DNA from: Mortierella sp. BCC40632 | Lineage: Eukaryota; Mortierellomycota; Mortierellomycetes; Mortierellales; Mortierellaceae | Assembly: GCA_011634665.1 (NCBI GenBank) | Contig: WAEK01000011.1 | Coordinates: forward strand, 947,001-1,011,000 | DNA: 64,000 nt | Reading direction: 5' to 3' | In this document: one piece after another, positions 21,791-64,000 of the stretch | Position numbering within the stretch: position 1 is the stretch's first letter | Layout of the letters: every line of letters begins with the position of its first letter | Notes under the pieces: model-generated | Database searches by the model: none | Told to the model about the DNA's origin: nothing | Seen by the model: the letters and a program-made list of their open reading frames with translations, nothing else | Program-made: the position numbers and the translations under genes

Positions 21791-21826
21791 AATGGAGGTG
21801 GTGGAAGGGAACTTCCTTTGCTACCA

Positions 21827-40224: not shown

Positions 40225-41240
40225 CGGTTCCAGTAACTCCTCCCAGTCCAGGCTGTACAAGATCATGCACTTTGCTGGATCACAGAGCACAACATTGGAC
40301 TTGTCGCCATGCACTCCATGCTGGCTATTCCTGTTGTAACGCGTCGCTTTTCGGACTTGGCCTGTCTTTTGACTCGCCACTTCCAGAAAATGCACCACTC
40401 TAATCCTGCTGCACACATCCGTGGCCGCATTTGGTTCACTCGTCGCCCTCACGATCGCATCTTGCCCCATGTCACTCGTCACCCGGATTATTCCCAGTGG
40501 TTGAGTGTCAAAAGAAGCATCGAGTCGCGCACTTTGGACCCATTGCCGCCTGGATTGACCCATGAGAGTACAGGGTACCCTCTCCGGTTATTCCTGAGGA
40601 ACAAGTTTTATGCAGACGTTGGTTCTCTGAATCTTGTCATGCCCCGCCAGTTTGTCGCAGAGATGCGAAAGCGACTTAGTGGCAGTTGCTACTTTGTCTT
40701 TTTAAATTCTCTTCGTCTCCGCAAGAATGCTATCGCTTGGAGTCTGAATCACTTTGCTGCTGGCTCAGATTGCTCCAAGTGTAAGCAGAGATTCTCTCGT
40801 CGCCATGTCAAGGAGTGCTTCGACGCTGACCTCTGTGGATATCTTCCTCGTGGTTGTGTTGATGCGTACCAAGCTTTCCTCCACAAACCTCCTCTGGGGC
40901 TGATCTTGCACTTTAATGTGATAGATTACCTCCTCCGCACGAAGAAGTTTTCTGCTCTTGCGACAGCCTTTGGCTATCTCGAGTTCTGGCAGAGGCCTCG
41001 TCAAAACTACAACACTGATCCCCCTCCCTGGCCATTCCACCCTGACGGAAGCCGACTTAGACGCTCTGACTGGTTCCCCTCCCGCATCACACACCCTACT
41101 CTTTTGACTTAGAATATTTTCGACTTGACTATTTTTTTCAACTTTGATTTTTTCGACTCTCCCTTCGACATATCACTTCCATAGCCTTCCCTACTCTTAG
41201 ATTGCCTTCTGGCCACACTATTAAAAAAACTTAAAGACTA
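40225..41240 (+). mobile_element. LINE1: 5'-truncated non-LTR retrotransposon copy
   Basis: Sequence from CGGTTCCAGTA matches the last ~900 nt of LINE3 ORF2 and its 3' UTR with scattered substitutions. The frame (40309-41112) is open and holds the C-terminal C-S-K-C-x7-H-x3-C knuckle. The copy starts inside ORF2, the usual result of incomplete target-primed reverse transcription. Its 3' UTR runs into the CCCTAA junction tract. Confidence 0.9.
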
Positions 41241-41283
41241 AAAAACCCTAAAAAACCCTATCCCTAACCTAAGCCCTAAATCC
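41240..41283. repeat. Telomere-like CCCTAA tract at the LINE1-LINE2 junction
   Basis: The tract reads AAAAACCCTA, AAAAACCCTA, TCCCTAACCT, AAGCCCTAAA, TCC: five CCCTA-type units with irregular spacing, directly between the end of LINE1's 3' UTR and the 5' UTR of LINE2. The same tract occurs at the other two junctions. Confidence 0.9.
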
Positions 41284-41497
41284 TGGCTAAACGTTGCCCC
41301 CTCCACTTTCCCACGCCAGATCCATCTGGCCCCCCTGCACTGCCACTCAAACCATAACAAAAGCCACCCGCAGTAATCACGCCATCTTTTTGGTCACTTT
41401 GACTCACCCTATTCCTTCCATTTTTTTTTCCGCACTCTCCCGGGATCATTTTCTTATATAATCCCCCTCCTGCCAGGTCCGTCGCATCTCCTTCATC

Positions 41498-43564
41498 ATG
41501 GGGACCCCCGGCACCCCCGAAGATCTCGCTGAGATCTCGGCCAAGTTTATCGGGAATCCCATCGATATTCTCCGCGCTGACTTCCTTGTAAAGGAGTATG
41601 GTCATCGATGGCCGTTTCCTTGCAAGCGTCATGAATGCCCCGTTAACAAGTTTTCCAAAGATCAAGTCGTCTCCAAGCGTGGACTTTATGCCCGTCGCTA
41701 CGCCAGAACGTGCAAACATGAGAAGATAACCGTCGAACAAGCCATCAAGTATCTTGGTACCTTCGACAATCGTGTCAACTGCACTACCTCCCCCCATCAC
41801 TCAGCCCCCCTTCCACTATTGACAACAGTTCCCCTTCTTTGTTCTTGTCTCCTGCGCCTTCTCCTTTGACTTCTGCCTCTGCCTCCACCCCTGCCTCTGC
41901 CTCTGCCCCTGCCATTGCCTCTATGCCTGCCCGTCTCCCACAGTGTTGTTTCCTCCATCCAAAAAATTCACTTCTGTGGACTTGGAAGATATTTCTTCTA
42001 TGTCCCAAGTGGAGAGTCCTGTTTCACCTGTTTTGCCCTCTTCTGATCTCCCTCTTGACGATATGGACGAATCTATGGATACTTTCGAGTTACCTAGTGA
42101 TTTTTTGTATCGTCTTCTTTACCAATCTTCTTTTGCCCCTGTTCCCTCCCCCCCGACTCCTCCGTTCCCGAATCTGCCTTCACCTTTCCAGCTGCCCAGA
42201 TCCCCCTATCGAAACCCAGCTCTGTCCAAACTCCTCCACTCATCCCTGTGACTTCTCCTACCTCTCATCCTGCTGTCAATTTTTCCACAAGCTCTCCAGA
42301 CGCAGTTGCTCCCGGTGGTGGTGCGTCTGCGTTGGGTCGCAAGAGGGGCCGTCGGATCATCAATGATTCAGACTCTGATGGGTTTTCATCAAATGCTCCT
42401 GAATCGTCTTCGGCTGCTTTTTCCCGTCACTTGGCTAAGGAGGCCAGTCGTTTGGGGAAGCTTCGTAAGATTGATCCGGAACTTTGTGATGAGATTGTCC
42501 TCAATCAATCTCGACTTTTCAAAGAGTATGAGTCTATTAAGGCTCTTCTTGCGAAAGTTCAGAGTGAAATTGATGGCATTCGCGATGGTCCCTCCTCTTC
42601 TGTTCCCTTTCATCACCTTCCTCCCTCCGCCAAGTTTTCAGCCTTGGAGTTGAAGGTCTCCGAGTTGGCCAAAGATTTCTCAGCTTTAGCTACCCGTGTT
42701 GAGAACACTGAGTCTTCGCTTGAGAAAACTGTAGCCGTCATTGGCCGTCTGGATTCTCTTGCTGATAGACTTGAGGCAGCCACGACTGCGTCGTTGACTG
42801 CCTCTGCTGCGTTCCCTGCACTCCCTGCCTCGCCTATTCCCACTCGCCGACTTCCTGAAAAAGCTGCTGCTCCCGCTTCCGCCGCCTCTCCTTCCAACTC
42901 TCCCAACACTTCCTCCCATCGATCTTATGCTGATTCTCTTAGAGCAAATCTCTCAGACGAACAGCGAAAGATCATCGACTCACTTAAGCCTTCCCCTCGT
43001 CCATTTCAAGCACGCCGTCGCCCTACTCCTCCCTCCACCTCTGTCACTCGTGTCTACTTTAGTGGCATTGAGTCTTGTCCCCTTGGCCAACTTAAGACAA
43101 AGTTCCGAGCTCTTCGTGTTCGTACCTCGGCTATTCATAACTTTGCTTTTGTTGGTCGCTCCATTCTCGAGCTCCTTGTGGAATCTTCCTATAAGGATGG
43201 CTTGATCTCTACTCTCTCCGCCTTCTCCTTCCGCCATCTCCCTACCTACGACCCATCCGTCCCTGGTGATGCAGCAGCCACCCCTGAAGTTCGCGCTCGA
43301 GTGAAGAAGGCTTATGGCGATCGTCTGACAAAGACGGTTGGCTCTACGACCTTACCAGTTGTCCGCGAGTACTTTTTGAATTTGCTCCGCGTTGGCAATC
43401 TGCCGGTCCCTGAAGACTTGCCCGACAAGACTGTTCCAGCTCCTCTCCCTGACTCGACTCCGGCTTCGGCTGATGCTGTTGATGAAGGTATGGACTGTGA
43501 CCCTCCTGCCGTTCCCGATGCCGCTGCCGCCCCAGTTGCCGAAGACTCTGAGGAAGATCTTTAA
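41498..43564 (+). pseudogene. LINE2 ORF1 protein
   Basis: The N-terminus (MGTPGTPEDLAEISAKF) has a Cys/His motif C42-x4-C47-x24-C72-x-H74. The frame is lost after about residue 95 by an extra base in CCCCCATCACTCAGCC, and is open again from 42248 to the end with a coiled coil (ALELKVSELAKDFSALATRVENTE) and a conserved C-terminal domain (RVYFSGIESCPLGQLKTKF...SILELLVESSYKD). ORF1 proteins of LINEs bind element RNA. The stop TAA (43562-43564) shares its last A with the ORF2 ATG. Confidence 0.85.
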
Positions 43565-46500
43565 TGAATAGTAAGTTTGTTTGTTCGTATTGCCTACCTC
43601 AACTGTCACGGCCTTCCAGCCAAAGACTTTGAGCGTATTTGTTCTTTCATTCCTTCACAGTTCGACATCTTCATCTGCTCTGAGACTTGGTTCTTGGATC
43701 ATTCCTTTTATTCTTCCCACCCACTCTTCCTTTGCTCCTCTCCCCTTCCTCCGGCCCCTGCAGCTGGTCACCGCCATGGTGGTCTTCTCTGCATTGTGTC
43801 ACCCCTTGTTCGTCGCCATATATCCTTTTCTGTTACGTCCCATTCCATTGATCTTTCCCTCCTTGGTTCCACCTTCCGTTCCCTCTATCTGCCACCTTCT
43901 CTTCCCATCGCCGACTTTGAATCCTTTTTCATCCGCCACATCTCTTGTTCTACTTCTTCCCCTGGTCTTCCTGATGTTATTCTTGGCGACCTCAATGTGC
44001 GTCTCGACTCTTTGTCTGGTCGTGGTTCTCGTGGAGGCCCTTCAGATCGAGTTGAGTGTGTGTCGAGGGTCATGAGATCTGGTTGTTATTTCCTTAACCT
44101 CCCTTCTCCTGGCACCGCCAGAAATCATCACGCACTGGTCCGCTGCCGTCAAGACTTCCGTTGGTCTTATGTTGATTCGTCTCCATATACCACGTCTGAC
44201 CACAAGATGATGGACTGCGTCCTAGAGCTTCGTGCTCCTATGGATGTGTCCCCGACTCAAGAGGCCCGCAGGTTCAACCTGAAATATCTCGTGCACGCCC
44301 GCGTTCGCTCAGACCTATGCAACAGCTTTGATGCTTGCGCTGAGGACTTTGCCGATTACAGTAGTCAAGTTCTTCACCGCGTTGAGGAACTGTCTACGGC
44401 TGGTGGGCTTGATGTTATTTCTTTGGTTGATCGCCAGCGCTTGGTCGACGACTTGGATGAATCTATTGTTAGTGCCATTCATGTTGCCGCCGAGGAGGTG
44501 TGTGGTTCGTATGTTCCGTCCGTGATGCGCGCTTCTGCTGATCGACTCTGGGATGATATCTCAGATGCTCCTTCGTTGGCTGACGCTGTCCGTACTTTCA
44601 AACGAGCTTGCCGCACAAGACTGTTACCCTGACGTCTCGAGATCCTTCGATCACTCCTGCTGAGGATGCTGTGAACCACTTTTCTGGTGTGTTTCGGCAG
44701 ACTCGCGACGAGTTGCTTCCCCCTCCTGTCTCACCTTATCGTGGAGTCTCTTTCACAAATGAGATCCTGTGGTCTGACGACTTTGGTCTGACGACTTTGA
44801 TTCGGTTTTGGAGAAAGTATCGAGCTCATGTTGCAGGGGGAGAGGATGGTGTTCATATTCGCCTTTTTCGAGCCCTTATTGGTTCTAGTCTTCCGTTTCG
44901 GACTATTGAGTTGTTCCGGTTGTGTTGTCTACTCGGTGTGACACCTGCCTCATGGAACCGCTCGGTAATCTTCCCCATCCCCAAGGGTGAGGAGACAACT
45001 ATCAACAAGTTCAGACCCATTTCACTTACTGTGATGATGCGTCGGTCCTTTGAGAGGTTGTTGATTCGGTTCTTCGAACGCTCCCCAGCGTTCCGCTTGC
45101 ATTCGACTCAGGCTGGCTTTCGACGTGGGTTCTCCACGTTGACGCACGCTCTGACGGCCCACGAAGCTGCCATTCTCGGTCACCGTTGTAGGGTGTTTTA
45201 CGACTTTGCTCAGGCGTATGACACTGTCCCTGTCCCACTCTTGCTTTCCAAGCTCGAGTCCAGGGGTGCTTCGACCCAGATTCTAGCTTTGGTTGATTCC
45301 CTCTTCCTGGGGACTTCTTCCAAGATCGTGGTGAATGGGCGGCAGACGAGATCGATAGACTTGACCCGTGGTCTTTTTCAAGGGTCTCTCTTGTCTCCTC
45401 TGCTGTTCGACGTCTTTATTGACGACCTTGCCTCCCTCTTGCATCAAGATACAGTGCCAAATAGCTGCCTCCCGCGATCGCTTCTGTTTGCTGACGATAT
45501 CACGGCCTCGTCCGAGTTTCCGTCTGACTTACAGGTGTCGACCAACAAGCTTGCTGCCTGGTCTCACGACAATGGCATGCAGTTGAATCTCTCCAAGTGT
45601 GGTGCTGTTGGCTTTGGCCCTCATGAACCCACTCCGATCATTCCTGGTCATGGAGAGATTCCCCGTGTTGACCGCTATACATATCTTGGATTCCCATTCG
45701 AGAAGTTAGGCATCAACTGGGAGGCTCACCTCGAGTCTACTGTTGCAAAGGCTACCTCGACTTTGGACATTTGTGTTCGTCGTGGAAGTCTTTGGCCTGC
45801 TGGTCTTCGCCTTGCCTTTTATCGCACCTTTGTTCGTTCTCAAATGGACTATGGTGCTGGCTTGGTCTATCGTTGGCTCATGAACTCGCCTGGTCGCAAT
45901 GCTAGCACTCCGGCCCCGTTCCCCTTTGTCCACAAGAATGATACTTCGCGGTTCCAGTATCTCCTCCCGGTCCAGGCTGTACAAGATCGTGCACTTTGCT
46001 GGATCACAGAGCACAACATTGGACTTGTCGCCATGCACTCCATGCTGGCTATTCCTGTTGTAACGCGTCGCTTTTCGGACTTGGCCTGTCTTTTGACTCG
46101 CCACTTCCAGAAAGCACCACCACTCTAATCCTGCTGCACACATCCGTGGCCGCATTTGGTTCACTCGTCGCCCTCACGATCGCATCTTGCCCCATGTCAC
46201 TCGTCACCCGGATTATTCCCAGTGGTTGAGTGTCAAAAGAAGCATCGAGTCGCGCACTTTGGACCCATTGCCGCCTGGATTGACCCATGAGAGTACAGGG
46301 TACCCTCTCCGGTTATTCCTGAGGAACAAGTTTTATGCTGACGTTGGTTCTCTGAATCTTGTCATGCCCCGCCAGTTTGTCCCAGAGATGCGAAAGCGAC
46401 TTAGTGGCAGTTGCTACTTTGTCTTTTTAAATTCTCTTCGTCTCCGCAAGAATGCTATCGCTTGGAGTCTGAATCACTTTGCTGCTGGCTCAGATTGCTC

Positions 46501-46837
46501 CAAGTGTAAGCAGAGATTCTCTCGTCGCCATGTCAAGGAGTGCTTCGACGCTGACCTCTGTGGATATCTTCCTCGTGGTTGTGTTGATGCGTACCAAGCT
46601 TTCCTCCACAATCCTCCTCCGGGGCTGATCTTGCACTTTAATGTGATAGATTACCTCCTCCGCACGAAGAAGTTTTCTGCTCTTGCGACAGCCTTTGGCT
46701 ATCTCGAGTTCTGGCAGAGGCCTCGTCAAAACTACAACACTGATCCCCCTCCCTGGCCATTCCACCCTGACGGAAGCCGACTTAGACGCTCTGACTGGTT
46801 CCCCTCCCGCATCACACACCCTACTCTTTTGACTTAG
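43564..46837 (+). pseudogene. LINE2 ORF2: endonuclease and reverse transcriptase, frameshifted
   Basis: Compared with intact ORF2 of LINE3, this copy has an extra GTTT five codons after the ATG (AAGTTTGTTTGTTCG), a TGG codon lost in SLVDRQ, a 1-nt change near 44625, and a change near 46115 (AAAGCACCACC for AAAATGCACC). The pieces still show APE endonuclease motifs (LNCHG, SETW, GDLN, SDH), RT with F-A-D-D, and the terminal CCHC knuckle. Substitutions relative to LINE3 are few. Confidence 0.88.
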
Positions 46838-46961
46838 AATATTTTCGACTTGACTTTTTTTTTTTTCAACTTTGATTTTTTCGACTCTCCCTTCGCCATA
46901 TCACTTCCATAGCCTTCCCTACTCTTAGATTGCCTTCTGGCCACACTATTAAAAGAACTTA

Positions 46962-47004
46962 AAGCCTAAAAAACCCTAAAAATCCCTAACTAAGCCCTAA
47001 ATCC
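46962..47004. repeat. Telomere-like CCCTAA tract at the LINE2-LINE3 junction
   Basis: Reads AAAGCCTAAA, AAACCCTAAA, AATCCCTAAC, TAAGCCCTAA, ATCC. It is slightly shorter than the first and third tracts but in the same place relative to both LINE ends. Confidence 0.88.
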
Positions 47005-48932
47005 TGGCTAAACGTTGCCCCCTCCACTTTCCCACGCCAGATCCTTCTGGCCCCCCTGCACTGCCACTCAAACCATAACAAAAGCCACCCGCAGTAATCA
47101 CGCCATCTTTTTGGTCACTCTGACTCACCCTATTCCTTCCATTTTTTTTTCCGCACTCTCCCGGGATCATTTTCTTATATAATCCCCCTTCCGCCAGGTT
47201 CGTTGCATCTCCTTCATCATGGGGACCCCCGGGACCCCCTCTGATCCAGTTGCAATCAAGGACAAGTTCTCTTGCTTCCCTGAGGATCGTATTGAGGCCG
47301 AACGCCTTCTTCGCCTTTACTCCAGCCAGTGGCCGAAGCCATGCCCCAACAAGGACTGCAAGGCCGACCCTGTCTTTTACAAAAATCAAGTCAAGTCGAC
47401 AAATTCCATGTTTGTCAGAACTTATCGCCGCTCCTGTAAGCATGAGCAGTTCACCGCTCGCCAGGTGATTGAAGTTTTACTTCCCCTGGATGGTGGTTTG
47501 GGCTGTACCGCCTCTCCTATCACCCAACCCCTTTCTTCTTCCTCTTTCATCCTCTCTTCTCCCAATCCGATCTTTGTTCCCCCTCCTTCAACTTCCACTG
47601 CCTCATCCGATTCCATTCAGTCTGCACCTATCTCTGCTTCCTCTTCTGCCCCTGTTGTTCATTTTGGTTCCTCCGCACCTACCTCTGTTGATCTCCCTTC
47701 TGCTTCTACCGCGTTTCCTCCAAACCTTGACCCCATGGACGACCCTATCCTCTCTTTCCCTGCAAGTGCTTCTGCCCCGGTTGATGAAGACCTCTCTACC
47801 ATGGACTTGGAGAATATCTCCTCTATGTCCCAATTTGCCGAGAGCACCGATTCTTCCGTTATTCCATTCACCGGTATCGGGACGGCTGATCTTGATGAAG
47901 TCATGGACTCCACCGAATCCTGTTCCGACTCTACCCCTAGTTCCTCTCTGTTGCCTTCCTTGCCTCCGGTTTCTTGTTCTTCTGATTTCCCCAATTCCCC
48001 CTTCACCTTCCAACCCTACCAAACTATCCCAGCTTCTATGTCTCCTGCTCCTTCACCTGTCCCTGATCCTGCCGTTGTTTCCACAATTCGTTCTTTGGAC
48101 CCCCCTGTCCCCCATGGTACACCCATTCCACCCCAGCCTATCACCCCCAAGCCCGAACGCAAAAGAATTCACACGATTGTTGAATCCGACTCCGACGACA
48201 CCCTTCCTGATGCCCCTGAATCATCTTCCGCTGCCGCTCTTCGTAATTCTACTTCCTTTGGTCCCCGATGGGAGAAGTTACGCAAGTTGGATCCTGTTCT
48301 TTTTGAAGATTTATCCGTTACCCAGGATCGTCTCCTTAAAGAACACCAGTCTTTGAAAAACATGTTGCAATCTGTCCAGAATGAACTTGGCTCCCTGCGA
48401 CAACGCCCCACATCGTTCCTCGCCCCTCAGTTTGACCTTTTGAGCTCACAAGTTGCAGAGTTGTCGAAGAAAGTGTCTGTCATTTCTTCTCGAGTCGACA
48501 AGACTGAATCCTCTTTTGAAAAGTTGAATTCTAACTTTGACAGATTGGACTCCCTTGCCGACCGACTAGAAGCTGCCATGACTTCGACAACAACTGCTTC
48601 CCTCGCTTTCCCTTCACTTCCTGCCCCGCCATCCTCCACTCGTCGTCACCCCACCACTCCTGTTACCTCTACTCCCTCCACAGCCTCTCCATCGTCTTCT
48701 CACCACGCTCCCCCTCGTTCTTACGCTGACTCTCTTAGAGCCAATCTCTCTGATGAACAGCGTAAGATTATCAATTCACTGAAGCCTTCCCCTCGACCCT
48801 TTCAATCACGTCGTCACCCCTCACCTCCTTCCACCCCTGTTGTTCGAGTCTACTTTGGTGGCATTGAGTCTTGCCCACTTGGACAACTAAAGACAAAGTT
48901 CCGAGCCCTGCGCGTACGCACCTCGGCTATTC

Positions 48933-48937
48933 ATAAC
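48933..48937 (+). repeat. Target-site duplication of element E, left copy (ATAAC)
   Basis: ATAAC at 48933-48937 is repeated at 57799-57803. LINE2 and LINE4 have the uninterrupted CATAACTTTGC at the same site, so the empty site is seen directly. Confidence 0.96.
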
Positions 48938-49099
48938 TCTAACAAAGAAGGGAGTGGCAGGAAAAGATGATCTTTATTGGTGGTAGGTGAAGGGACTATT
49001 TATACATGTGAGTGAGGTGGACCTTTTAAGTTATAGGGGTGGGAGTGGACATGACCTCAAAGGTTAAAGGGGTGGGTGCTGATGGTCGATACTGTGACA
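48938..49099 (-). repeat. 3' LTR of element E
   Basis: 162 bp. On the minus strand it starts TGTCACAGTATCG, has TATAAATAG, then AATAAAG about 25 nt later, and ends TTTGTTAGA. Confidence 0.93.
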
Positions 49100-52000
49100 C
49101 CTTCCCCCATTAAGTGAAGCAGGTCGTGATCCTTACAGTACTGTCTAAGGGTGTCTTCACAATGTGAAAGATTTTTTGAGAGGCTCCCAGGTGGCATCTG
49201 AAGCAGCATCGTACCCGACCCATTTGACAAGAAAACTTGTCTTTTCGTTTTGGCTGTCGTCCTGTGCGCTAAGATAGCCTCTACTTCATGTTCCTCATTA
49301 CCCTCAATGATATCGGGTTCTGGAGGAGGTGAAGACCGGCGGCCAAGCGACTCTGGAGATGGAACAAACGGTTTAAAACGGTCGACATGAAATACGTCAT
49401 GTATTTTCAATGTAGGGGGGTAGCTCGACCTTGACCTTGAAGGAGACCGGGCTTCGTTGTTCGAGGAGTGTGAACGGGCCAAAGTATCGAGCCTGTAGTG
49501 ATGCAGCTGGTCGGCTAGAGTCATACGCAGTTGTGATGTTTTCCGTACTGAGCAGGACTTGGTCCCCCACTTTGAATGAGTGTGGCCTCCGGTGAGCATC
49601 AGCATTCTTGATTTGCTGATTCTGAGCCGAGAGAAGGCTGTCTTGTGCCAGAGATAATGAGGTCTTCTGCAAGGCAACAAATTTGTCCATGTCTGTGGGA
49701 CAAGCTTCTTCAGGGGGCCCGAGGAGGGAAGCAGGAACCCGTGGATGGAATCCATGATTGAAAAAATGGGGAGACTCCTGTGGATGAATTGACGGCATTG
49801 TTGTATGCGAATTCTGCAGCAGGGAGGTATAGGTCCCAGTCATCCTGTTTGTGGTTCACTAGACTCCGAAGAACTGACTTAAGAGTTTGAATGGCTCGTT
49901 CGGATTGACCATCTGTCTGCGGATGAAATGCTGAGGACATGGCAAGCTTCGTTCCTAGTCGCTCGTGGAGGCGCTTCAAAAAGGAACTAGTGAACTTGCT
50001 ATCCCGGTCGGAGACAATCGTGGAGGGCAACCCATGGAGGCGAAAGACATTTGCAAAGAAACAATTGGCAACGTCCTTTGCTGAATCTGTAGTCCGACTA
50101 GGGGCAAAATGGACCTGTTTCGACAATTTGTCTACGAAGACAGTGATTGCATCGAATTTGCGTGCTGTTTGTGGTAGTTTTACCACGAAATCCATTGATA
50201 CTGTGTCCCAACGTTGTTCTGGAATGGCTAAAGGTTGAAGAAGTCCAGCTGGAAGGCGGCGGACTGCTTTGTTACGTTGGCAGCTCGAGCAGGATTCGAC
50301 ATACCGTCGGACATCATTTGACATCTTAGGCCAATAGGCAAACCGCCGTAAGGTGGCGTATGTCTTGTCAAAGCCGAAGTGGCCTGATATTGCAGCATCA
50401 TGAACCTCGTGGAGTAGGATTAAACGCAGAGTGGACGACTTCGGGACGCAGAGTAATAGGTCACCCTTGCGCTCGACATACAATAGACCGTCCTGCAAAA
50501 AGTAGTGTGGTGGTGGTTGGCCTTGAAGACACCTCTCATAGACGGGAGCAAGACCAGGGTCATCAGCATACCCCTCTATAACGTGCTGTCTCCAACTTGT
50601 ATCCGTCTGAAGGCTGAAAGAGTTGATGGACATAGGGACAGGATCTGGTTCAAGTTTATCAGGTTCGCGGTGGTCCGGACGACGAGAGAGAGCATCTGGT
50701 ACGATGTTCTCAATTCCCCGCTTGAACTTGAACTCGAAATCATACTCTTGGAGGAGTTCCATCCATCTCGCCTGGCGCCTTGTCAGTTTGGGCTGGGTTG
50801 GAAAGTGTCTCAGCGTATCGTGATCGGTATATACAACAAAAGTGTGAACCGTCTAAGTAAAAAGCGCCATGTTTTGAGGGCGTGGACAACAGCCAGGAGT
50901 TCCTGTTCATGGGTAGGGTAGTTCCGTTCAGCTGGGTTTAGTTTGCGGGATGTAAATGCGACAGGTCTGGATGATCCGTCGGCGTCTGTTTGGAAAAGAA
51001 CAGCACCTATGGCAAATCCAGAGGCATCAGTCTCCACTGTGGACGGCAGATCGGGGTCAAAGATTCGTAGGACTGGAGCGGAGCTGATTGCAGATTTGAG
51101 GCTAAGGAATGCTTGTTCGCTGTTTTCATCCCATACGAACTGATGGTTTTCGCCAAGGAGGGAGGTGAGGGGAAGTGCGATGTCGGCAAAATTTTTGATA
51201 TATTGGTGATAAAATTGCGCAAGACCAAGAAATTGCTGAACGTCGCGTTGTTTCTCCGGTCGTGGCCATTCACGGATCGCTTTAACAAGCCCTGCATTGG
51301 TGTGAACGCCATCTTTGGTTATTACATGGCCGAGAAACTCCGTTTCTTCTTTCATGAAAGAGCACTTGCTCAGCTTGGCGTACAGTCCATGTTTTCGGAG
51401 GAGAGGGGCAAGGACACTTCGAATATGGCGGAGATGCTCGGTCTTGGTTTTTGAATAAATCAAGATATCGTCGAGGTAGACGACAACCCACTTGTCCAGA
51501 ACAGGATCGAGTACTTTCAGCATCATATTGGAAAAGGAAGCCGGTGCATTTGTGAGGCCAAATGGAACCACATTAAACTCAAAATGACCGTATCTGCAGC
51601 GAAAAGCGGTCTTGTGCGTGTGTGGTCCATAGATGCGCTGTTGGTGGTAACCAGAAATGAGGTCAAGCTTGGTAAAGTAGCGAGCGCCACGGAATCTGTC
51701 AATAAGCTCGTCTATTCTGGGCAGCGGGTGGCGATTCTTCCTTGTGATACTGTTGAGAGCACGATAATCGACGCACATTCGGAGAGTGCCATCAGCCTTC
51801 TTGACGAATAAAACAGGGGCACCATACGGAGACGTGCTTGGTTTGATGAACTTTTTGGAGAGTAGGTCGTCCAGTTGTTTTTTTTTAGCTCGTCAAGTTC
51901 AGCAACAGATAGTCGAATGACGGGGGGCGGAAGGGGGGTCTGCCGCTGGGTCAGTGTCGATACGCATAGCATCACCTCGGTCGGGGGAAGGCCTGATGGG

Positions 52001-54008: not shown

Positions 54009-54756
54009 CAGAAAAAAATGGTGGAGAACCTGGGCAACCATTGTCGGATACTCAATAAGAGGTTCTAGCGGAAGGTCATCTTCAATGATTGCACTCTCCC
54101 CTAGATAAAACAAACAACCGATCAAGACGTTGCTTTCACTGTTCTTGTTGTTTTCATATTTTGTACCTTTTCTTTTCCCTTTTTTTCTCTTTTTTTTTCA
54201 TCACATTACTTTTTTTTTTCGACCTTTCTGACACACGCTGAGCCATCGATGGGCGATACCCTCCACCACCACAAGTTATCTCCATCAGAAGCGATTCGCC
54301 AGACCCTGCTCCATTTCACACTTGCACCCACGACATACCCTTTCAAAATATTTGTCCTTTGATGGCATGCCTCCCCTCCCACACCCTCAGATCCGTAAAA
54401 TATTTTCAGCCGGAGTTTAGTTGTCGGTTCAAGTGTTTTCGTTACCACTTTGAAATGACAAAGCCACGGGTTGCCATGGATCACCAACTGCTCTCTTCCC
54501 TCTATTCTTTCTACGGCCAAAGGTCCCTGATGTTCAATATTTGCAGGCTCAAAGCTTAAGATGACCCCGAACAGTTTCCCACATCCACACTCCCTCGATT
54601 CCTTTTGTAGAAAAGGCAGGAAGTCGTCTCCGGAAATTAAGTAACGGTTGTTCAGGTTGAGGACGGACGGCTCGCCGTTGGTGGGTGATAAAGTAAATGA
54701 ACGGATCGACTAGAAGGGAGCAGGGAGGAGATCCTCGTGCCCGCAGTTTGCAAAGC

Positions 54757-54906
54757 AGTTTTTTTTTTATTATTATTATTATTTATCTTTATTTTTGTCC
54801 TTTCTCTTTGACTCCTTCCATTTGTTCTTCTTCCCTGTCCTTTCCCCTCGTCCTTGTCCTTTTCCTTTCACCCTTCCCCTATTCCCTGTGGCGACCATGA
54901 TCATCT

Positions 54907-54980
<74 letters not shown>
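54757..54980. repeat. T/ATT and A/ATT tracts inside element F
   Basis: A T9 and (ATT)n stretch at 54757-54785 and a ~31-A run followed by (ATA/ATT)n at 54907-54978 flank a pyrimidine-rich segment, just past the stop of the antisense ORF. Further A runs lie at 56180-56202 and 56390-56404. Confidence 0.9.
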
Positions 54981-54997
54981 ACCTTGGTTTCCCCATT

Positions 54998-56167
54998 TCA
55001 CATATTTCTGCCGTGCGTTCCATCTTGATCCTCTTCTGGTTCATCCTCATCAGTTTCTCCACCTCGAGCGGCTTCAAGATTCTCCTCCTCCATCTCCTCG
55101 GCCTCACGAATATAAGGCCTGATACGCTTGGCGTGTTTCCAGGCTTCCAGGTTATGTCGATCCAGGCTATGGCCTATGGCGTCGAGACGTTGTCCATTCT
55201 CGCGAAGGGCGGCCTCATGTTGCATTAGCGCAGATTGATGTTGGACTAAGGAACGAAGGGAGCTCTCCAAGAGAAATTGACTATGGATGATATCCATGGA
55301 AGTCCTGCTGACCCCCAAGCCAGTGATTGTATAGCGGCCCAGGTCTTGAGCGGCCCCAAGAACATCTATGGGTCTGGCGCACATCGTCGGATCATGGAGA
55401 GCCTTGAACGCTAGTTCGGAACGGAGTAGCTCTAGGTGCTCCCAACGCCGGAACAACTGCTGATAGGACGACAGATCAGCGAGCATCGAAGGGGTCCCGT
55501 GAGCCTTCCTGGACCAGCCAGGAACTTCCTCATCACTTCGTTGTTTCCGTTTACCGAGACCAGATGGACTCCCCTCCTGTGAGCGAGAACCCGACCTCTG
55601 CAAATTCAGCGCAGGAGAACTCCTCGTGCCTGGACCCGAAGGACTTGCCCCACGAGTCGTCTCATTTGGACGCTGTGAAGATCCAGCATCCGCAGAAGCC
55701 CTTGCACCCGGAATAGATGATTCCTCGTCTCTCTCGGACCCTACATGCCGATCGATGAGAGGCCTCTCTGTTGCAGGCACAACGTCCGTCGCGTCCTCAA
55801 GAAAGAGTCTTTTCCTGTCTTGGTCTGCACCTTTGCGGTGCGCGGGAGACTCATCGCCATCCTCGCCGTCCGAATTGGCCACAAACGCATCCGACCACAG
55901 TTCGCGCTCCAGTATCTGAGTCGGCTGATCGAATGGAGGAGGTTCTTCGGATGATCCCTCCGCAACCACTGGGGGGGCTAAACAGGATATTAATTTGACC
56001 TCCCCTAAGGGTGGCCTTGGGATGTGCTGTCGAAGAGTCCCAGCGCTCGGCGCATCGCCAACACGACCTTGCTGAGTGTTTCCTGAACGTGGGCGGGGCA
56101 TGGTGGTTGGGTGATAACGGTGAAAGGGCGTTCCCGGAAGGGTATCAAAGCAGAAGTGGCAGGTCAA
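54998..56167 (-). CDS. Unassigned 389-codon ORF antisense inside element F
   Basis: The longest frame in element F runs opposite to the element. The start may be 56167 or the later ATG at about 56102 (MPRPRSG). It has a disordered acidic/Ser/Pro N-terminal half with a KRKQR nuclear-import-like cluster, then a helical half from about residue 235 (SSYQQLFRRWEHLELL, SLRSLVQHQSALMQHEAAL, LDAIGHSLDRHNLEAW) and a very acidic tail. Composition and length look coding; no gag knuckle, protease or polymerase motif is present. I do not recognise a family. It could be a captured host gene or an element-specific protein with its own promoter. Confidence 0.5.
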   Translation of the reverse strand: MTCHFCFDTLPGTPFHRYHPTTMPRPRSGNTQQGRVGDAPSAGTLRQHIPRPPLGEVKLISCLAPPVVAEGSSEEPPPFDQPTQILERELWSDAFVANSDGEDGDESPAHRKGADQDRKRLFLEDATDVVPATERPLIDRHVGSERDEESSIPGARASADAGSSQRPNETTRGASPSGPGTRSSPALNLQRSGSRSQEGSPSGLGKRKQRSDEEVPGWSRKAHGTPSMLADLSSYQQLFRRWEHLELLRSELAFKALHDPTMCARPIDVLGAAQDLGRYTITGLGVSRTSMDIIHSQFLLESSLRSLVQHQSALMQHEAALRENGQRLDAIGHSLDRHNLEAWKHAKRIRPYIREAEEMEEENLEAARGGETDEDEPEEDQDGTHGRNM

Positions 56168-56485
56168 AGAGCAGGTTCAAAAAAAAAAAAAAAAAAAAAA
56201 AAGCGAATGAGCAGACAACGAGTGGACAGAATGAAGAGGGGATGTCTTCTTGTCGAGCCCATGTTCGAACTCTTATTTTATTTTATTTTTTGTGAAACAT
56301 CAGATGAGATTGAGTCAATCAGATGATGCATGGTGGACCAATCAGATGTCAAGATCACTTGGTGGTGCTTTGAGCAAGGAGATGTCACAAAAAAAAAAAA
56401 AAAATCTAGCTCAAAGGAGTAGAGCTACTCACTTGGCAGCTGCGATATCCAGTTGGGTATCGAAGAGGCACGGGGATCAGAGAGG

Positions 56486-56854
56486 TGTGGTGTAGTAAAT
56501 ACGACTGGGCGATCTTCTGGCCCCTGGGCCTGGGGGTATAAATGGTGTCCCTCGACACCAGACAATAAAGAGTTTTTGTTTTCTTCCTTTTATTTTCCCG
56601 ATCCGTTTGTGAATACTTACCGTCTGGAGCAGGTCCACTCGTCCGCCCGCCCCGGGGGTGCGATCCTGTAGCTAGATATTGTTCATTTGCGAGTCTTTTC
56701 TCTTGCCTTGTTCTCTCTTATAGAACGGTGATACGCGTCGTGATCATTATGTTTCCCTCTTCTATGCTGGCAATCCCCTTTCCCAATAGGTTTCACACAC
56801 CTGCCTGCCAAGTAGTGCGAGCTCTTTCCCCCTGTGCTGGTCCTCTACGCCGCA
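56486..56854 (+). repeat. 3' LTR of element F
   Basis: 369 bp, matching the 5' copy except for one T-to-C change. One difference in 369 bp implies a young insertion, consistent with F being the innermost layer of the nest. Confidence 0.93.
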
Positions 56855-57636
56855 ACGCGTCGTCTCAAGCGGCGGAACTCGTGAGTGTAGGCAGCAATGG
56901 TTCGTTTGCCTTGTTTCAGACCTTCGAGGGCCTCACGAGCGGCGGTCTTTGCATTGGGAGGGGTGTGGAAATCAAGGAATGCCTCTCGAAATTTTATCCA
57001 TGGGCAGGTGATGTTGAGACCGCATGTTCTCCACCAGGATTTAGCGTCTCCAGTAAGGTTTAAGGCTGTATACTGCACCCAGTCGCATTCGTTGAGCTTG
57101 ACGACCTGGTAATACTCCTCCTGGTTGTCGATGAAGTTGTTGCAGGCGTCCGCGTCGATGTCCCCAGAGTAGGGGGCGGGGGTTTGAGGTTTGAGGATTT
57201 TATGCAAGGTACGCGCAACGTCGCGGTGAGCAGCCTCAATTTCAAGCTGGGATGGGGCGGGGGGATCAGAGGGGGTGGTGATGGACGAGAGCAGAGAGCT
57301 AATCCTGTTTCTTTCCTCCTCTGGGAGGGAGGCGACGATGCTGAGGATTTCGTGCTGGGCCGACATGTTGGAAATAGGGGGGAAACAGAATAGGGGGTGA
57401 GAGAAAGAGAGAAAAAAAAAGAGGGGGGGGAGGGCGGGAGGGTCAAGGGAAAAAGGGGTGGGGAAAAAAAAGAAAAGAGAGGGAGGGTTCTAGGAACCGA
57501 GTGGAAAGGAAAGTAGAGGGGAAGAGTGAAAGTGAAGTGAATAAAAAAAAGTACTGCCAGGGAGCTGCCTAACGAGTGGAGGGAAAGATAATAGTCAGGG
57601 TAGAAGAGGCAGTGAATCGAGGTACCTTTGCTACCA

Positions 57637-57798
57637 TCTAACAAAGAAGGGAGTGGCAGGAAAAGATGATCTTTATTGGTGGTAGGTGAAGGGACTATTT
57701 ATACATGTGAGTGAGGTGGACCTTTTAAGTTATAGGGGTGGGAGTGGACATGACCTCAAAGGTTAAAGGGGTGGGTGCTGATGGTCGATACTGTGACA
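57637..57798 (-). repeat. 5' LTR of element E
   Basis: 162 bp, identical by eye to the 3' copy. The TGGTAGCAAAGG primer site (minus) abuts its inner end exactly. Confidence 0.93.
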
Positions 57799-58225
57799 AT
57801 AACTTTGCCTTCGTTGGTCGTTCTATTTTGGAGCTCCTCGTGGAGTCCTCTTACAAGGACAACTTGGTTTCAACACTTGCTGCTTTTTCTTTCCGCCACC
57901 TTCCCACATATGATCCTTCTGTCCCAGGTGACGCCACTGCGACTCCTGAGGTTCGTGCTAGAGTCAAAAAGGCCTACAGCGATCGTCTTACTAAGACGGT
58001 TGGCTCCACCACCCTCCCTGTTGTCCGTGAGCACTTTTTGAATTTGCTCCGCACCGGAAACTTGCCGATTCCTGAGGATCTACCTGACAAGACTATCCCT
58101 GTGCCTCTCTCTATTGCCACTTCTGCACCTGCAGTTGCTGTTGATGTTGAGATGAACTGCGATATACCTGTTGTCCCTGCCCCTGCCGCCGATCCAGTCG
58201 CTGAAGACTCTGGGGAAGAACTTTA

Positions 58226-61200
58226 ATGAATAGTAAGTTTGTTCGTATTGCCTACCTCAATTGTCGTGGACTTCCGGGTCTTGACTTTGAGCGTATTTGT
58301 TCTTTTGTTCCTTCCCAGTTTGATATCTTCATTTGCTCCGAGACTTGGTACTTGGATCAGTCCTTGTACTCTTCTCATCCCCTCTTCCTTTGTTCCTCCC
58401 CCCTCCCTCAGGCCACTGCAGCTGGTCGCCGCCATGGTGGTCTTCTCTGCATTGTGTCACCCCCTGTTCGTCGCCATATATCCTTTTCTGTTACGTCCCA
58501 TTCCATTGATCTTTCCCTCCTTGGTTCCACCTTCCGTTCACTCTATCTGCCACCTTCTCTTCCCATCGCCGACTTTGAATCCTTTTTCATCCGCCACATC
58601 TCTTGTTCTACTATTTCCCCTGCTATTCCTGATGTTATTCTTGGCGACCTCAATGTGCGTCTCGACTCTTTGTCTGGTCGTGGTTCTCGTGGAGGCCCTT
58701 CAGATCGAGTTGAGTGTGTGTCGAGGGTCATGAGATCTGGTTGTTATTTCCTTAACCTCCCTTCTCCTGGCACCGCCAAGAATCATCACGCACTGGTCCG
58801 CTGCCGTCAAGACTTCCGTTGGTCTTATGTTGATTCGTCTCCATATACCACGTCTGACCACAAGATGATGGACTGCGTCCTAGAGCTTCGTGCTCCTATG
58901 GATGTGTCCCCGACTCAAGAGGCCCGCAGGTTCAACCTGAAATATCTCGTGCACGCCCGCGTTCGCTCAGACCTATGCAACAGCTTTGATGCTTGCGCTG
59001 AGGACTTTGCTGATTACAGTAGTCAAGTTCTTCACCGCGTTGAGGAACTGTCTACGGCTGGTGGGCTTGATGTTATTTCTTGGTTGGTTGATCGCCAGCG
59101 CTTGGTCGACGACTTGGATGAATCTATTGTTAGTGCCATTCATGTTGCCGCCGAGGAGGTGTGTGGTTCGTATGTTCCGTCCGTGATGCGCGCTTCTGCT
59201 GATCGACTCTGGGATGATATCTCAGATGCTCCTTCGTTGGCTGACGCTGTCCGTACTTTCAAACGAGCTTGCCGCACAAAGACTGTTACCCTGACGTCTC
59301 GAGATCCTTCGATCACTCCTGCTGAGGATGCTGTGAACCACTTTTCTGGTGTATTTCGGCAGACTCGCGACGAGTTGCTTCCCCCTCCTGTCTCACCTTA
59401 TCGTGGAGTCTCTTTCACAAATGAGATCCTGTGGTCTGACGACTTTGGTCTGACGACTTTGATTCGGTTTTGGAGAAAGTATCGAGCTCATGTTGCAGGG
59501 GGAGAGGATGGTGTTCATATTCGCCTTTTTCGAGCCCTTATTGGTTCTAGTCTTCCGTTTCGGACTATTGAGTTGTTCCGGTTGTGTTGTCTACTCGGTG
59601 TGACACCTGCCTCATGGAACCGCTCGGTAATCTTCCCCATCCCCAAGGGTGAGGAGACAACTATCAACAAGTTCAGACCCATTTCACTTACTGTGATGAT
59701 GCGTCGGTCCTTTGAGAGGTTGTTGATTCGGTTCTTCGAACGCTCCCCAGCGTTCCGCTTGCATTCGACTCAGGCTGGCTTCCGACGTGGGTTCTCCACG
59801 TTGACGCACGCTCTGACGGCCCACGAAGCTGCCATTCTCGGTCACCGTTGTAGGGTGTTTTACGACTTTGCTCAGGCGTATGACACTGTCCCTGTCCCAC
59901 TCTTGCTTTCCAAGCTCGAGTCCAGGGGTGCTTCGACCCAGATTCTAGCTTTGGTTGATTCCCTCTTCCTGGGGACTTCTTCCAAGATCGTGGTGAATGG
60001 GCGGCAGACGAGATCGATAGACTTGACCCGTGGTCTTTTCCAAGGGTCTCTCTTGTCTCCTCTGCTGTTCGACGTCTTTATTGACGACCTTGCCTCCCTC
60101 TTGCATCAAGATACAGTGCCAAATAGCTGCCTCCCGCGATCGCTTCTGTTTGCTGACGATATCACGGCCTCGTCCGAGTTTCCGTCTGACTTACAGGTGT
60201 CGACCAACAAGCTTGCTGCCTGGTCTCTCGACAATGGCATGCAGTTGAATCTCTCCAAGTGTGGTGCTGTTGGCTTTGGCCCTCATGAACCCACTCCGAT
60301 CATTCCTGGTCGTGGAGAGATTCCCCGTGTTGACCGCTATACATATCTTGGATTCCCATTCGAGAAGTTAGGCATCAACTGGGAGGCTCACCTCGAGTCT
60401 ACTGTTGCAAAGGCTACCTCGACTTTGGACATTTGTGTTCGTCGTGGAAGTCTTTGGCCTGCTGGTCTTCGCCTTGCCTTTTATCGCACCTTTGTTCGTT
60501 CTCAAATGGACTATGGTGCTGGCTTGGTCTATCGTTGGCTCATAAACTCGCCTGGTCGCAATGCTAGCACTCCGGCTCCGTTCCCCTTTGTCCACAAGAA
60601 TGATACTTCGCGGTTCCAGTATCTCCTCCCGGTCCAGGCTGTACAAGATCGTGCACTTTGCTGGATCACAGAGCACAACATTGGACTTGTCGCCATGCAC
60701 TCCATGCTGGCTATTCCTGTTGTAACGCGTCGCTTTTCGGACTTGGCCTGTCTTTTGACTCGCCACTTCCAGAAAATGCACCACTCTAATCCTGCTGCAC
60801 ACATCCGTGGCCGCATTTGGTTCACTCGTCGCCCTCACGATCGCATCTTGCCCCATGTCACTCGTCACCCGGATTATTCCCAGTGGTTGAGTGTCAAAAG
60901 AAGCATCGAGTCGCGCACTTTGGACCCATTGCCGCCTGGATTGACCCATGAGAGTACAGGGTACCCTCTCCGGTTATTCCTGAGGAACAAGTTTTATGCT
61001 GACGTTGGTTCTCTGAATCTTGTCATGCCCCGCCAGTTTGTCCCAGAGATGCGAAAGCGACTTAGTGGCAGTTGCTACTTTGTCTTTTTTAATTCTCTTC
61101 GACTCCGCAAGAATGCTATCGCTTGGAGTCTGAATCACTTTGCTGCTGGCTCAGATTGCTCCAAGTGTAAGCAGAGATTCTCTCGTCGCCATGTCAAGGA

Positions 61201-61498
61201 GTGCTTCGACGCTGACCTCTGTGGATATCTTCCTCGTGGTTGTGTTGATGCGTACCAAGCTTTCCTCCACAATCCTCCTCCGGGGCTGATCTTGCACTTT
61301 AATGTGATAGATTACCTCCTCCGCACGAAGAAGTTTTCTGCTCTTGCGACAGCCTTTGGCTATCTCGAGTTCTGGCAGAGGCCTCGTCAAAACTACAACA
61401 CTGATCCCCCTCCCTGGCCATTCCACCCTGACGGAAGCCGACTTAGACGCTCTGACTGGTTCCCCTCCCGCATCACACACCCTACTCTTTTGACTTAG
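58226..61498 (+). CDS. LINE3 ORF2: APE endonuclease and reverse transcriptase, intact
   Basis: 1090-codon open frame whose ATG overlaps the ORF1 stop as TAATG. Endonuclease residues are visible: N12 (YLNC), E39 (SETW), D141 and N143 (GDLN), D211 and H212 (TSDH). The RT domain spans about 430-760, with KFRPISLT, AFRRGFS-type fingers, a DFAQAYDTV motif A, GLFQGSLLSPLLF and catalytic F-A-D-D at 642-645. A C-terminal knuckle C978-x2-C981-x7-H989-x3-C993 follows. No RNase H motif was seen. The enzyme would nick target DNA and copy element RNA from the nick. All catalytic residues are present, so this copy could supply enzyme for the family. Confidence 0.95.
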   Translation: MNSKFVRIAYLNCRGLPGLDFERICSFVPSQFDIFICSETWYLDQSLYSSHPLFLCSSPLPQATAAGRRHGGLLCIVSPPVRRHISFSVTSHSIDLSLLGSTFRSLYLPPSLPIADFESFFIRHISCSTISPAIPDVILGDLNVRLDSLSGRGSRGGPSDRVECVSRVMRSGCYFLNLPSPGTAKNHHALVRCRQDFRWSYVDSSPYTTSDHKMMDCVLELRAPMDVSPTQEARRFNLKYLVHARVRSDLCNSFDACAEDFADYSSQVLHRVEELSTAGGLDVISWLVDRQRLVDDLDESIVSAIHVAAEEVCGSYVPSVMRASADRLWDDISDAPSLADAVRTFKRACRTKTVTLTSRDPSITPAEDAVNHFSGVFRQTRDELLPPPVSPYRGVSFTNEILWSDDFGLTTLIRFWRKYRAHVAGGEDGVHIRLFRALIGSSLPFRTIELFRLCCLLGVTPASWNRSVIFPIPKGEETTINKFRPISLTVMMRRSFERLLIRFFERSPAFRLHSTQAGFRRGFSTLTHALTAHEAAILGHRCRVFYDFAQAYDTVPVPLLLSKLESRGASTQILALVDSLFLGTSSKIVVNGRQTRSIDLTRGLFQGSLLSPLLFDVFIDDLASLLHQDTVPNSCLPRSLLFADDITASSEFPSDLQVSTNKLAAWSLDNGMQLNLSKCGAVGFGPHEPTPIIPGRGEIPRVDRYTYLGFPFEKLGINWEAHLESTVAKATSTLDICVRRGSLWPAGLRLAFYRTFVRSQMDYGAGLVYRWLINSPGRNASTPAPFPFVHKNDTSRFQYLLPVQAVQDRALCWITEHNIGLVAMHSMLAIPVVTRRFSDLACLLTRHFQKMHHSNPAAHIRGRIWFTRRPHDRILPHVTRHPDYSQWLSVKRSIESRTLDPLPPGLTHESTGYPLRLFLRNKFYADVGSLNLVMPRQFVPEMRKRLSGSCYFVFFNSLRLRKNAIAWSLNHFAAGSDCSKCKQRFSRRHVKECFDADLCGYLPRGCVDAYQAFLHNPPPGLILHFNVIDYLLRTKKFSALATAFGYLEFWQRPRQNYNTDPPPWPFHPDGSRLRRSDWFPSRITHPTLLT

Positions 61499-61619
61499 AA
61501 TATTTTCGACTTGACTTTTTTTTCAACTTTGATTTTTTCGACTCTCCCTTCGCCATATCACTTCCATAGCCTTCCCTACTCTTAGATTGCCTTCTGGCCA
61601 CACTATTAAAAAAACTTAA

Positions 61620-61668
61620 AGACTAAAAAACCCTAAAAAACCCTATCCCTAACCTAAGCCCTAAATCC
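61620..61668. repeat. Telomere-like CCCTAA tract at the LINE3-LINE4 junction
   Basis: From the end of LINE3's 3' UTR: AAAAAACCCTA twice with small changes, TCCCTAACCTAAG, CCCTAAATCC. It is identical to the LINE1-LINE2 tract, while the sequence after GGCTAAAC (LINE4 5' UTR) diverges from the other copies. Confidence 0.9.
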
Positions 61669-64000
61669 TGGCTAAACAGTTTCCCCCTCCACTTTCCACT
61701 TCCAGATCCTTCTGGAACCCCTGGACTGCCACTTCATCTTCCTCAGCCACCCGCAGTAACTGCGGATTTGTCATCCACCTCTGACTCACTCTGTATCCAT
61801 CCGATTTTTTTTTTTTTTTTTTCCTTCTCCGACTCTGGGATATTTCTATTTAATCAACCACTCGCCAGGTCCGTCGCATCTCCTTCATCATGGGGACCCC
61901 CGGCACCCCCGAAGATCTCGCTGAGATCTCGGCCAAGTTTATTGGGAATCCCATCGATATTCTCCGCGCTGACTTCCTTGTAAAGGAGTATGGTCATCGA
62001 TGGCCGTTTCCTTGCAAGCGTCATGAATGCCCTGTTAACAAGTTTTCCAAAGATCAAGTCGTCTCCAAGCGTGGACTTTATGCCCGTCGCTACGCCAGAA
62101 CGTGCAAACATGAGAAGATAACCGTCGAACAAGCCATCAAGTATCTTGGTACCTTCGACAATCGTGTCAACTGCACTACCTCCCCCATCACTCAGCCCCC
62201 TTCCACTATTGTCAACAGTTCCCCTTCCTTTTTCTTGTCTCCTTCGCCTTCTCCTTTGACTTCTGCCTCTGCCTCCACCCCTGCCTCTGCCTCTGCCCCT
62301 GCCATTGCCTCTATGCCTGCCCGTCTCCACAGTGTTGTTTCCTCCATCGAACAATTCACTTCTGTGGACTTGGAAGATATTTCTTCTATGTCCCCAAGTG
62401 GAGAGTCCTGTTTCACCTGTTTTTGCCCTCTTCTGATCTCCCTCTTGACGATATGGACGAATCTATGGATACTTTCGAGTTACCTAGTGATTTTTGTATC
62501 GTCTTCTTTTACCAAACTTCGTCTTTTGCCCCTGTTCCTCCACCCCCGACTCCTCCGTTCCCGAATCTGCCTTCACCTTTCCAGCTGCCCAGATCCCCCT
62601 ATCGAAACCCAGCTCTGTCCAAACTCCTCCACTCATCCCTGTGACTTCTCCTACCTCTCATCCTGCTGTCAATTTTTCCACAAGCTCTCCAGACGCAGTT
62701 GCTCCCGGTGGTGGTGCATCTGCGTTGGGTCGCAAGAGGGGCCGTCGGATCATCAATGATTCAGACTCTGATGGGTTTTCATCAAATGCTCCTGAATCGT
62801 CTTCGGCTGCTTTTTCCCGTCACTTGGCTAAGGAGGCCAGTCGTTTGGGGAAGCTTCGTAAGATTGATCCGGAACTTTGTGATGAGATTGTCCTCAATCA
62901 ATCTCGACTTTTCAAAGAGTATGAGTCTATTAAGGCTCTTCTTGCGAAAGTTCAGAGTGAAATTGATGGCATTCGCGATGGTCCCTCCTCTTCTGTTCCT
63001 TTTCATCCCCTTCCTCCCTCCGCCAAGTTTTCAGCCTTGGAGTTGAAGGTCTCCGAGTTGGCCAAAGATGTCTCAGCTTTGGCTACCCGTGTTGAGAACA
63101 CTGAGTCTTCGCTTGAGAAAACTGTAGCCGTCATTGGCCGTCTGGATTCTCTTGCTGATAGACTTGAGGCAGCCACGACTGCGTCGTTGACTGCCTCTGC
63201 TGCGTTCCCTGCACTCCCTGCCTCGCCTATTCCCACTCGCCGACTTCCTGAAAAAGCTGCTGCTCCCGCTTCCGCCGCCTCTCCTTCCAACTCTCCCAAC
63301 ACTTCCTCCCATCGATCTTATGCTGATTCTCTTAGAGCAAATCTCTCAGACGAACAGCGAAAGATCATCGACTCATTTTAAGCCTTCCCCTCGTCCATTT
63401 TCAAGCACGCCGTCGCCCTACTCCTCCCTCCACCTCTGTCACTCGTGTCTACTTTAGTGGCATTGAGTCTTGTCCCCTTGGCCAACTTAAGACAAAGTTC
63501 CGAGCTCTTCGTGTTCGTACCTCGGCTATTCATAACTTTGCTTTTGTTGGTCGCTCCATTTCTCGAGCTCCTTGTGGAGATCTTCCTATAAGGATGGCTT
63601 GATCTCTACTCTCTCCGCCTTCTCCTTCCGCCATCTCCCTACCTACGACCCATCCGTCCCTGGTGATGCAGCAGCCACCCCTGAAGTTCGCGCTCGAGTG
63701 AAGAAGGCTTATGGCGATCGTCTGACAAAGACGGTTGGCTCTACGACCTTACCAGTTGTCCGCGAGTACTTTTTGAATTTGCTCCGCGTTGGCAATCTGC
63801 CGGTCCCTGAAGACTTGCCCGACAAGACTGTTCCAGCTCCTCTCCCTGACTCGACTCCGGCTTCGGCTGATGCTGTTGATGAAGGTATGGACTGTGACCC
63901 TCCTGCCGTTCCCGATGCCGCTGCCGCCCCAGTTGCCGAAGACTCTGAGGAAGATCTTTAATGAATAGTAAGTTTGTTCGTATTGCCTACCTCAACTGTC
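61666..64000 (+). mobile_element. LINE4: non-LTR retrotransposon, runs off the window
   Basis: 5' UTR (~220 nt) differs from that of LINE2 and LINE3, with shared islands (AACCCCTGGACTGCC, CCACCCGCAGTAA-type text) and an 18-T run. ORF1 follows at 61890-63961, and the first ~40 nt of ORF2 (ATG 63961) reach the window end. The TAATG overlap is kept. Confidence 0.9.
61890..63961 (+). pseudogene. LINE4 ORF1 protein, frameshifted
   Basis: Near-identical to LINE2 ORF1 in both N- and C-terminal parts, with the same C42-x4-C47-x24-C72-x-H74 motif. Open from 61890 to 62759, but in the wrong frame after about residue 165. The correct frame is carried by 62494-63381, which ends in an extra T (CTCATTTTAAGCC for CTCACTTAAGCC), and by 63572-63961. 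Extra bases also lie near 63400 (CCATTTTCAAG), 63560 (CATTTCTCG) and 63580. The domain order is as in LINE3 ORF1. Confidence 0.85.

Follow-up and report, generated by a model that had tools for sequence, protein, structure and literature searches.

Head-to-tail LINE arrays joined by telomere-like tracts in a Mortierellales fungus

Among the long interspersed elements (LINEs) known from chromosome ends, HeT-A, TART and TAHRE of Drosophila lie with their 5' end outward, and TRAS of Bombyx mori carries a C-terminal CCHC knuckle and has poly(A) at its 3' end. According to the accessible parts of the sources cited in this text, Drosophila has neither telomerase nor telomere repeats (PMC7265360), and TRAS, as we interpret the same source, inserts on the C-rich-strand side, which places the C-rich repeat next to its sense 3' end (PMC7265360). 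MoTeR1 of Magnaporthe/Pyricularia oryzae is the fungal case named among telomere LINEs (PMC10088271). Like FoTeR of Fusarium oxysporum, it is a non-long-terminal-repeat (non-LTR) element embedded in telomeres beside telomerase-type repeats, 5' end outward, and in MoTeR arrays telomere tracts separate the tandem copies, the 5' ends of copies resemble telomere sequence and LTR elements are inserted (PMC7367193, PMC12857005). FoTeRs (2025), MoTeR1 and Cnl1 form one clade with a restriction-enzyme-like nuclease, grouped with SLACS/CRE (PMC12857005). Here we describe a LINE family found in 64,000 nucleotides of Mortierella sp. BCC40632 (the window; contig WAEK01000011.1, called C11 below, positions 947,001 to 1,011,000) and elsewhere in the assembly. 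We consider it very probable that this LINE, which has two open reading frames (ORFs) and an apurinic/apyrimidinic (APE)-type endonuclease, inserts specifically in the telomere repeats of its host, building head-to-tail arrays with the 5' end outward.

Comparison of the window with itself revealed four LINE units, all on the + strand and head to tail, the first and fourth being incomplete and the third split. Nucleotide identity was 97.5% between 40225-41518 and 45949-47239 (blastn), 96.8% between 40225-43607 and 60611-64000, and 94.1% between 43137-47239 and 57799-61910. The parts of the array are as follows.

40225 to 41236, + strand: LINE1, 5'-truncated at 40225, with the end of ORF2 and the 3' untranslated region (UTR), recognised by blastn to LINE2 and LINE3; the 3' UTR ends in ...CTTAAAG at 41236
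41237 to 41259, + strand: telomere-like tract at the LINE1-LINE2 joint, matching the host terminal repeat T4-7AGGG
41260 to 46964, + strand: LINE2, full-length, its 5' start being the fixed telomere-like ATCCCTAACCTAAGCCCTAAATCC
43562 to 43566, + strand: TAATG, overlap of ORF1 stop and ORF2 start in LINE2
46965 to 46981, + strand: telomere-like tract at the LINE2-LINE3 joint
46982 to 61621, + strand: LINE3, full-length but interrupted by a nested LTR element
47219 to 48937, + strand: first part of LINE3 ORF1, 573 aa read, which resumes beyond the nested element
48938 to 57798, - strand: LTR retroelement nested in LINE3, 8.9 kb, with identical 162-bp LTRs and the 5-bp duplication ATAAC
58226 to 61498, + strand: LINE3 ORF2, 1090 aa, uninterrupted
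61622 to 61644, + strand: telomere-like tract at the LINE3-LINE4 joint
61645 to 64000, + strand: LINE4, with the other 5' UTR type, extending beyond the window

Both the self-comparison and the parsed joints bear out the first-pass annotation of this DNA, which had described four LINEs head to tail on this strand with only telomere-like tracts between them. Tracts do exist at all three joints, but the ranges proposed for them ran on into the following element, whose first bases are fixed and telomere-like. They had also been read as irregular CCCTAA/CCCTAAA units; the repeat is in fact built of AAAA(A)(A)CCCT, which complements the host T4-7AGGG telomere. Clusters of CCCTA are densest at the joints (4, 3 and 4 per 60 bp; the rest of that strand has no more than 2), and TAGGG clusters in the window reach at most 3 per 60 bp, a value found once (52615).

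An uninterrupted ORF2 was found within the window in LINE3 only, and both ORFs of LINE2 carry frameshifts. The TAATG overlap recurs in LINE3 (58224-58228) and LINE4 (63959-63963). The LINE3 ORF2 protein, P0001, comprises an APE-type endonuclease at about 1-222, a reverse transcriptase domain (RVT_1) at 472-711 and a CCHC knuckle at 978-993. The reverse transcriptase matches PF00078 with an E value of 6e-26, and its best matches among solved structures are LINE-1 ORF2p and R2. The N-terminal domain is assigned as an APE endonuclease from its predicted model, for which the TRAS1 structure is among the best, tied, matches, and from the conserved active-site residues, which are present. Despite the CCHC knuckle, no RHD or RHN motif was found anywhere in P0001. 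Its relatives include a LINE protein of Entomortierella parvispora (EMPS_07226, Mortierellaceae; 45% identity over 75%) and ten proteins from contigs of 3.5-5.5 kb (51-60% identity); the other named relatives are distant. In LINE3 ORF1 a Cys/His cluster is visible by eye at the N-terminus, and Pfam gave coiled-coil-like matches at no better than E 0.01-0.1, below the cut-off.

Two 5' UTR types occur among the units (window 61669-61890 versus 47005-47220), and ORF1 of LINE3 has diverged from that of LINE2 and LINE4. Both the UTR types and the ORF1 forms are mixed within arrays, which suggests that subfamilies have recombined. The retroelement nested in LINE3 contains a second repeat pair, 53640-54008 and 56486-56854.

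By the sequence of its predicted RNA polymerase III subunit (one open frame, 858 aa), the host is a Mortierellales fungus. This protein is 86% identical to that of Mortierella alpina and 87%, over 67% of its length, to that of Haplosporangium bisporale, both Mortierellales; it is 82% identical to those of Actinomortierella wolfii and Linnemannia elongata, which we take to belong to the same order, and 73% to that of Basidiobolus ranarum, the best named match outside the group among the 120 matches listed. Telomere repeats are given as AAACCCT in Umbelopsis and TTAGGG in Mucor in the accessible parts of PMC13042297 and PMC11258239. When 58 contig ends were read (39 starts and 19 ends), telomere repeats were found to terminate two of them, the right ends of C9 and C17, and the repeat there is T4-7AGGG, mainly TTTTAGGG, instead of the TTAGGG that the first-pass annotation had assumed. 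The C17 end is mostly regular TTTTAGGG, and the C9 end has mostly longer T runs and some AGGGG. A pattern search of the whole assembly found no exact (CCCTAA)3. The exact pattern TTTTAGGGTTTTAGGGTTTT gave 15 genome matches, all at the right ends of C9 and C17 (control, 1 match), and a looser telomere pattern gave 20, 19 of them at the same two ends and the remaining one within C17, where two LINEs join (control, 1). The reversed control pattern AATCCCAATCCCAATCCC had 12 forward and 1 reverse genome matches. A telomerase RNA-binding domain (TERT) is encoded on C29.

A 3'-end search of the genome, with 17 of 17 candidates scored, detected 17 LINE 3' ends: three each on C11 (those of the window), C8 and C17, two each on C9, C20 and C27, and one each on C43 and C45. 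The 12 on C8, C9, C17, C20 and C27 all lie less than 18 kb from a contig end, and 12 of 12 have the 5' end outward; for scale, the 20 kb at each contig end make up 2.4% of C1-C29. The clustering of copies near contig ends that the first-pass annotation had set as a check is present for 12 of the 17, and two such ends are true telomeres, but the repeat is T4-7AGGG and the window array is interstitial. LINE sequence was present at four of the 58 contig ends read (C8, C9, C17, C20) and in a stretch near the C27 end. An ORF2 search, in which 42 of 73 candidates were scored, added C5 as the only further contig, together with further copies on C20 (25.9-28.9 kb), C43 and C45 (contig start); for the last of these (C45:356-3159) this search did not find the 3' end. 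The three copies without a 3' end on C5, on C20 (its third) and on C11 (LINE4) are broken by rearrangement or LTR elements. Over the last 1.4 kb, each of 15 comparable copies has a relative at 98.5-99.9% identity, on another contig in 13 cases, and pairs from one contig are not more alike than the rest (98.96 versus 99.1%); this fits recent insertion together with exchange among ends.

The 3' UTR ends in ...CTTAAAG or close forms, with a long A run in none of the 17 cases, and the sense 3' end is followed by a C-rich tract in all 17, as had been proposed, although the tract starts with CCTAAAA or ACTAAAA and not with regular CCCTAA. Twelve tracts lead to another LINE, which starts with ATCCCTAAC(C)TAAGCCCTAAATCC or with a similar or damaged version of it, and five (C8, C9, C17, C27, C45) lead to a common subtelomere boundary. 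A pattern for this boundary, allowing up to 3 mismatches, occurs in four places, all adjoining LINEs; the C45 form, 1 base shorter, was missed. Tracts could be cleanly parsed at 14 of the 17 ends and measure 7-37 bp, the unparsed ones being at C9:2310072, C17:1198259 and C8:2558977. At the right end of C17, the outermost LINE, which is without some of the usual first bases, directly meets the terminal (TTTTAGGG)n. We also looked for the contrary outcome, in which most copies end in unrelated sequence with ordinary target duplications, and did not see it. The tract at every 3' end and the clustering at contig ends support the early proposal that telomere repeats are the target of this family and that its tandem arrays arise in this way.

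In the last 1000 bases of C9, between the last LINE and the telomere, lie three units made of 5' UTR only, about 150-210 bp each, the outermost truncated. Their joints are near the start codon of the element, and ATC is common to that site and the 5' end, which could fit template jumping or recombination.

Location, orientation, joint sequences, the predicted enzyme fold and the TERT domain are read directly; the mechanism that we infer would run as follows. The 3' end of the LINE RNA, bearing the telomere-like unit CCTAAAA, would pair with the G-rich strand, either where the APE endonuclease has nicked it or at the 3' overhang of the chromosome itself, and reverse transcription would then proceed outward. 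The 5' sequence of the element, ATCCCTAAC(C)TAAGCCCTAAATCC, is fixed and telomere-like, and a completed copy would finish with its complement. Telomerase could lengthen that end with new TTTTAGGG, providing the site for the next insertion. Blocks are probably added, trimmed, copied and displaced by recombination among chromosome ends. A bolder version, which we put forward only tentatively, is that LINE and telomerase form a two-step cycle of end extension in this early-diverging fungus: the LINE would prime on the TTTTAGGG overhang of eroded ends, and its 5' sequence, copied last, would be a built-in seed for re-capping by telomerase. Telomeres would then be maintained in part by an APE-type LINE that evolved independently of the fungal restriction-enzyme-like elements and of insect TRAS/SART.

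Several points weigh against telomere-specific insertion. Pfam detects no endonuclease domain in P0001. The window array is internal in C11, bordered by LTR elements, and the C5 copy is likewise internal. C8, C20 and C27 terminate inside a LINE, and with just 2 of 58 ends telomeric and 4 of 58 with a LINE, either few ends carry the element or few were assembled. The C8:2558977 joint is disordered, homopolymer errors near contig ends are likely, and a target duplication cannot be discerned inside a repeat. Moreover, the five innermost insertions sit at nearly one subtelomere boundary (four of them found by pattern) and are maybe one insertion copied between ends. This last point leads to an account in which arrays arose mainly from recombination, by break-induced replication, unequal exchange and the spread of entire subtelomeres, true insertions being few. 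It draws also on two C11 joints that have identical tracts, on the repeated 5' UTR units of C9, on the C5 and C20 copies that break at one LINE position beside a common flank, and on MoTeR arrays, for which the available text of PMC7367193 describes growth and shrinkage through breakage, healing and break-induced replication. Nevertheless, tract lengths vary among the parsed joints, 5' UTR types are mixed within arrays, and same-contig copies are no closer than cross-contig ones, though exchange between ends would give the same result. Nor does recombination alone explain why the unit boundaries next to telomere repeats coincide with the element's own termini, and we regard it as a rather unlikely main source of the arrays. 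Far less probable is a reading in which slippage of the reverse transcriptase makes the CCCTAAAA tract, which would then be a 3' tail belonging to the element, and in which elements prefer their own arrays and not telomeres. The first 7 bases past the 3' UTR are indeed nearly constant in all 17 cases, but the tract matches the repeat at true chromosome ends, it also stands behind the innermost copies with no further LINE (5 of 17), and the C9 and C17 arrays have telomere at their outer end. Among the 17 places of the 3'-end search, no solo copy outside telomeres ending in the same tract was seen.

The window array has an interstitial position, and most likely the array is a displaced telomeric block now inside C11. 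On its left, LINE1 adjoins LTR-like sequence, and self-comparison found no further LINE piece left of it in the window; on its right, LINE4 is broken by a gypsy-like LTR element at 65180 in window coordinates. A terminal array misjoined to another contig, that is an assembly error, is possible but has in our view the lesser chance. Both borders are broken copies beside LTR repeats, and neither the 3'-end search nor the ORF2 search (42 of 73 candidates scored) recovered from C11 the missing remainders of LINE1 and LINE4; on the other hand, the window is without N's, a second interstitial fragment exists on C5, and internal relics of telomeric MoTeRs, which the C11 array resembles, are described in the blast fungus (PMC7367193, available text). 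The breakpoints of the C5 copy and of the third C20 copy coincide within a base or two of the LINE. Since the break position and the flank are common to both, the C5 copy looks like a copied or moved subtelomeric block and not an ordinary insertion. The flank is minisatellite-like, 95.6% identical over 1078 columns.

Upstream of the array, window 13976-39309 holds several gypsy-like elements with gag, RNase H and integrase matches, and an ORF at 38572-39309 carries a chromodomain. Two of these elements are 98.6% alike (16831-22095 and 28084-33349). Between gypsy-like elements, at 24238-27221, lie two different tandem repeat blocks, possibly satellite or pericentric DNA.

If telomere-specific insertion holds, this is a telomere-specialised APE-endonuclease LINE in a fungus, in the Mortierellales, on a T4-7AGGG telomere; no APE-type telomere LINE of any fungus was found in the literature searched, whose coverage leaves out most subscription papers. 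The element's fixed telomere-like termini yield a testable prediction of how a LINE and telomerase can share the end of a chromosome. Arrays that were displaced may mark, within a chromosome, where an end used to be.

The Mortierella LINE resembles MoTeR and FoTeR in its telomere location with the 5' end outward, and MoTeR also in the telomere tracts between copies, the telomere-like 5' end and the LTR elements in its arrays. Their nuclease, however, is restriction-enzyme-like, whereas the Mortierella element has two ORFs, an N-terminal APE-type enzyme and a T4-7AGGG telomere. Membership in the CRE-like group of MoTeR, FoTeR and Cnl1 was rejected on the CCHC knuckle without RHD/N and on the APE endonuclease in its place. 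This suggests that fungi acquired telomere targeting a further time, with a nuclease of another class. With HeT-A, TART and TAHRE the element shares head-to-tail arrays at chromosome ends; full replacement of telomerase repeats of the Drosophila type was rejected, the TERT domain and TTTTAGGG ends being present. SART1 of Bombyx mori shares telomere targeting and the UAAUG overlap of ORF1 stop and ORF2 start (a reference title in PMC2881922), but has the opposite telomere orientation and needs a longer poly(A) tail for accurate insertion (PMC7265360, available text). TRAS has in common with the Mortierella LINE the APE endonuclease, the two ORFs, the C-terminal CCHC knuckle and the orientation, the 3' end followed by C-rich repeat as in all 17 cases here; the Mortierella element differs in its fungal host, in having no long 3' poly(A) and in its fixed telomere-like 5' end. 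With the poly(A) tail missing, we do not file it under TRAS/SART (R1 clade), the likeness seen being one of telomere insertion, orientation and nuclease type. By orientation and nuclease type it is nonetheless closer to silkworm TRAS than to MoTeR or FoTeR.
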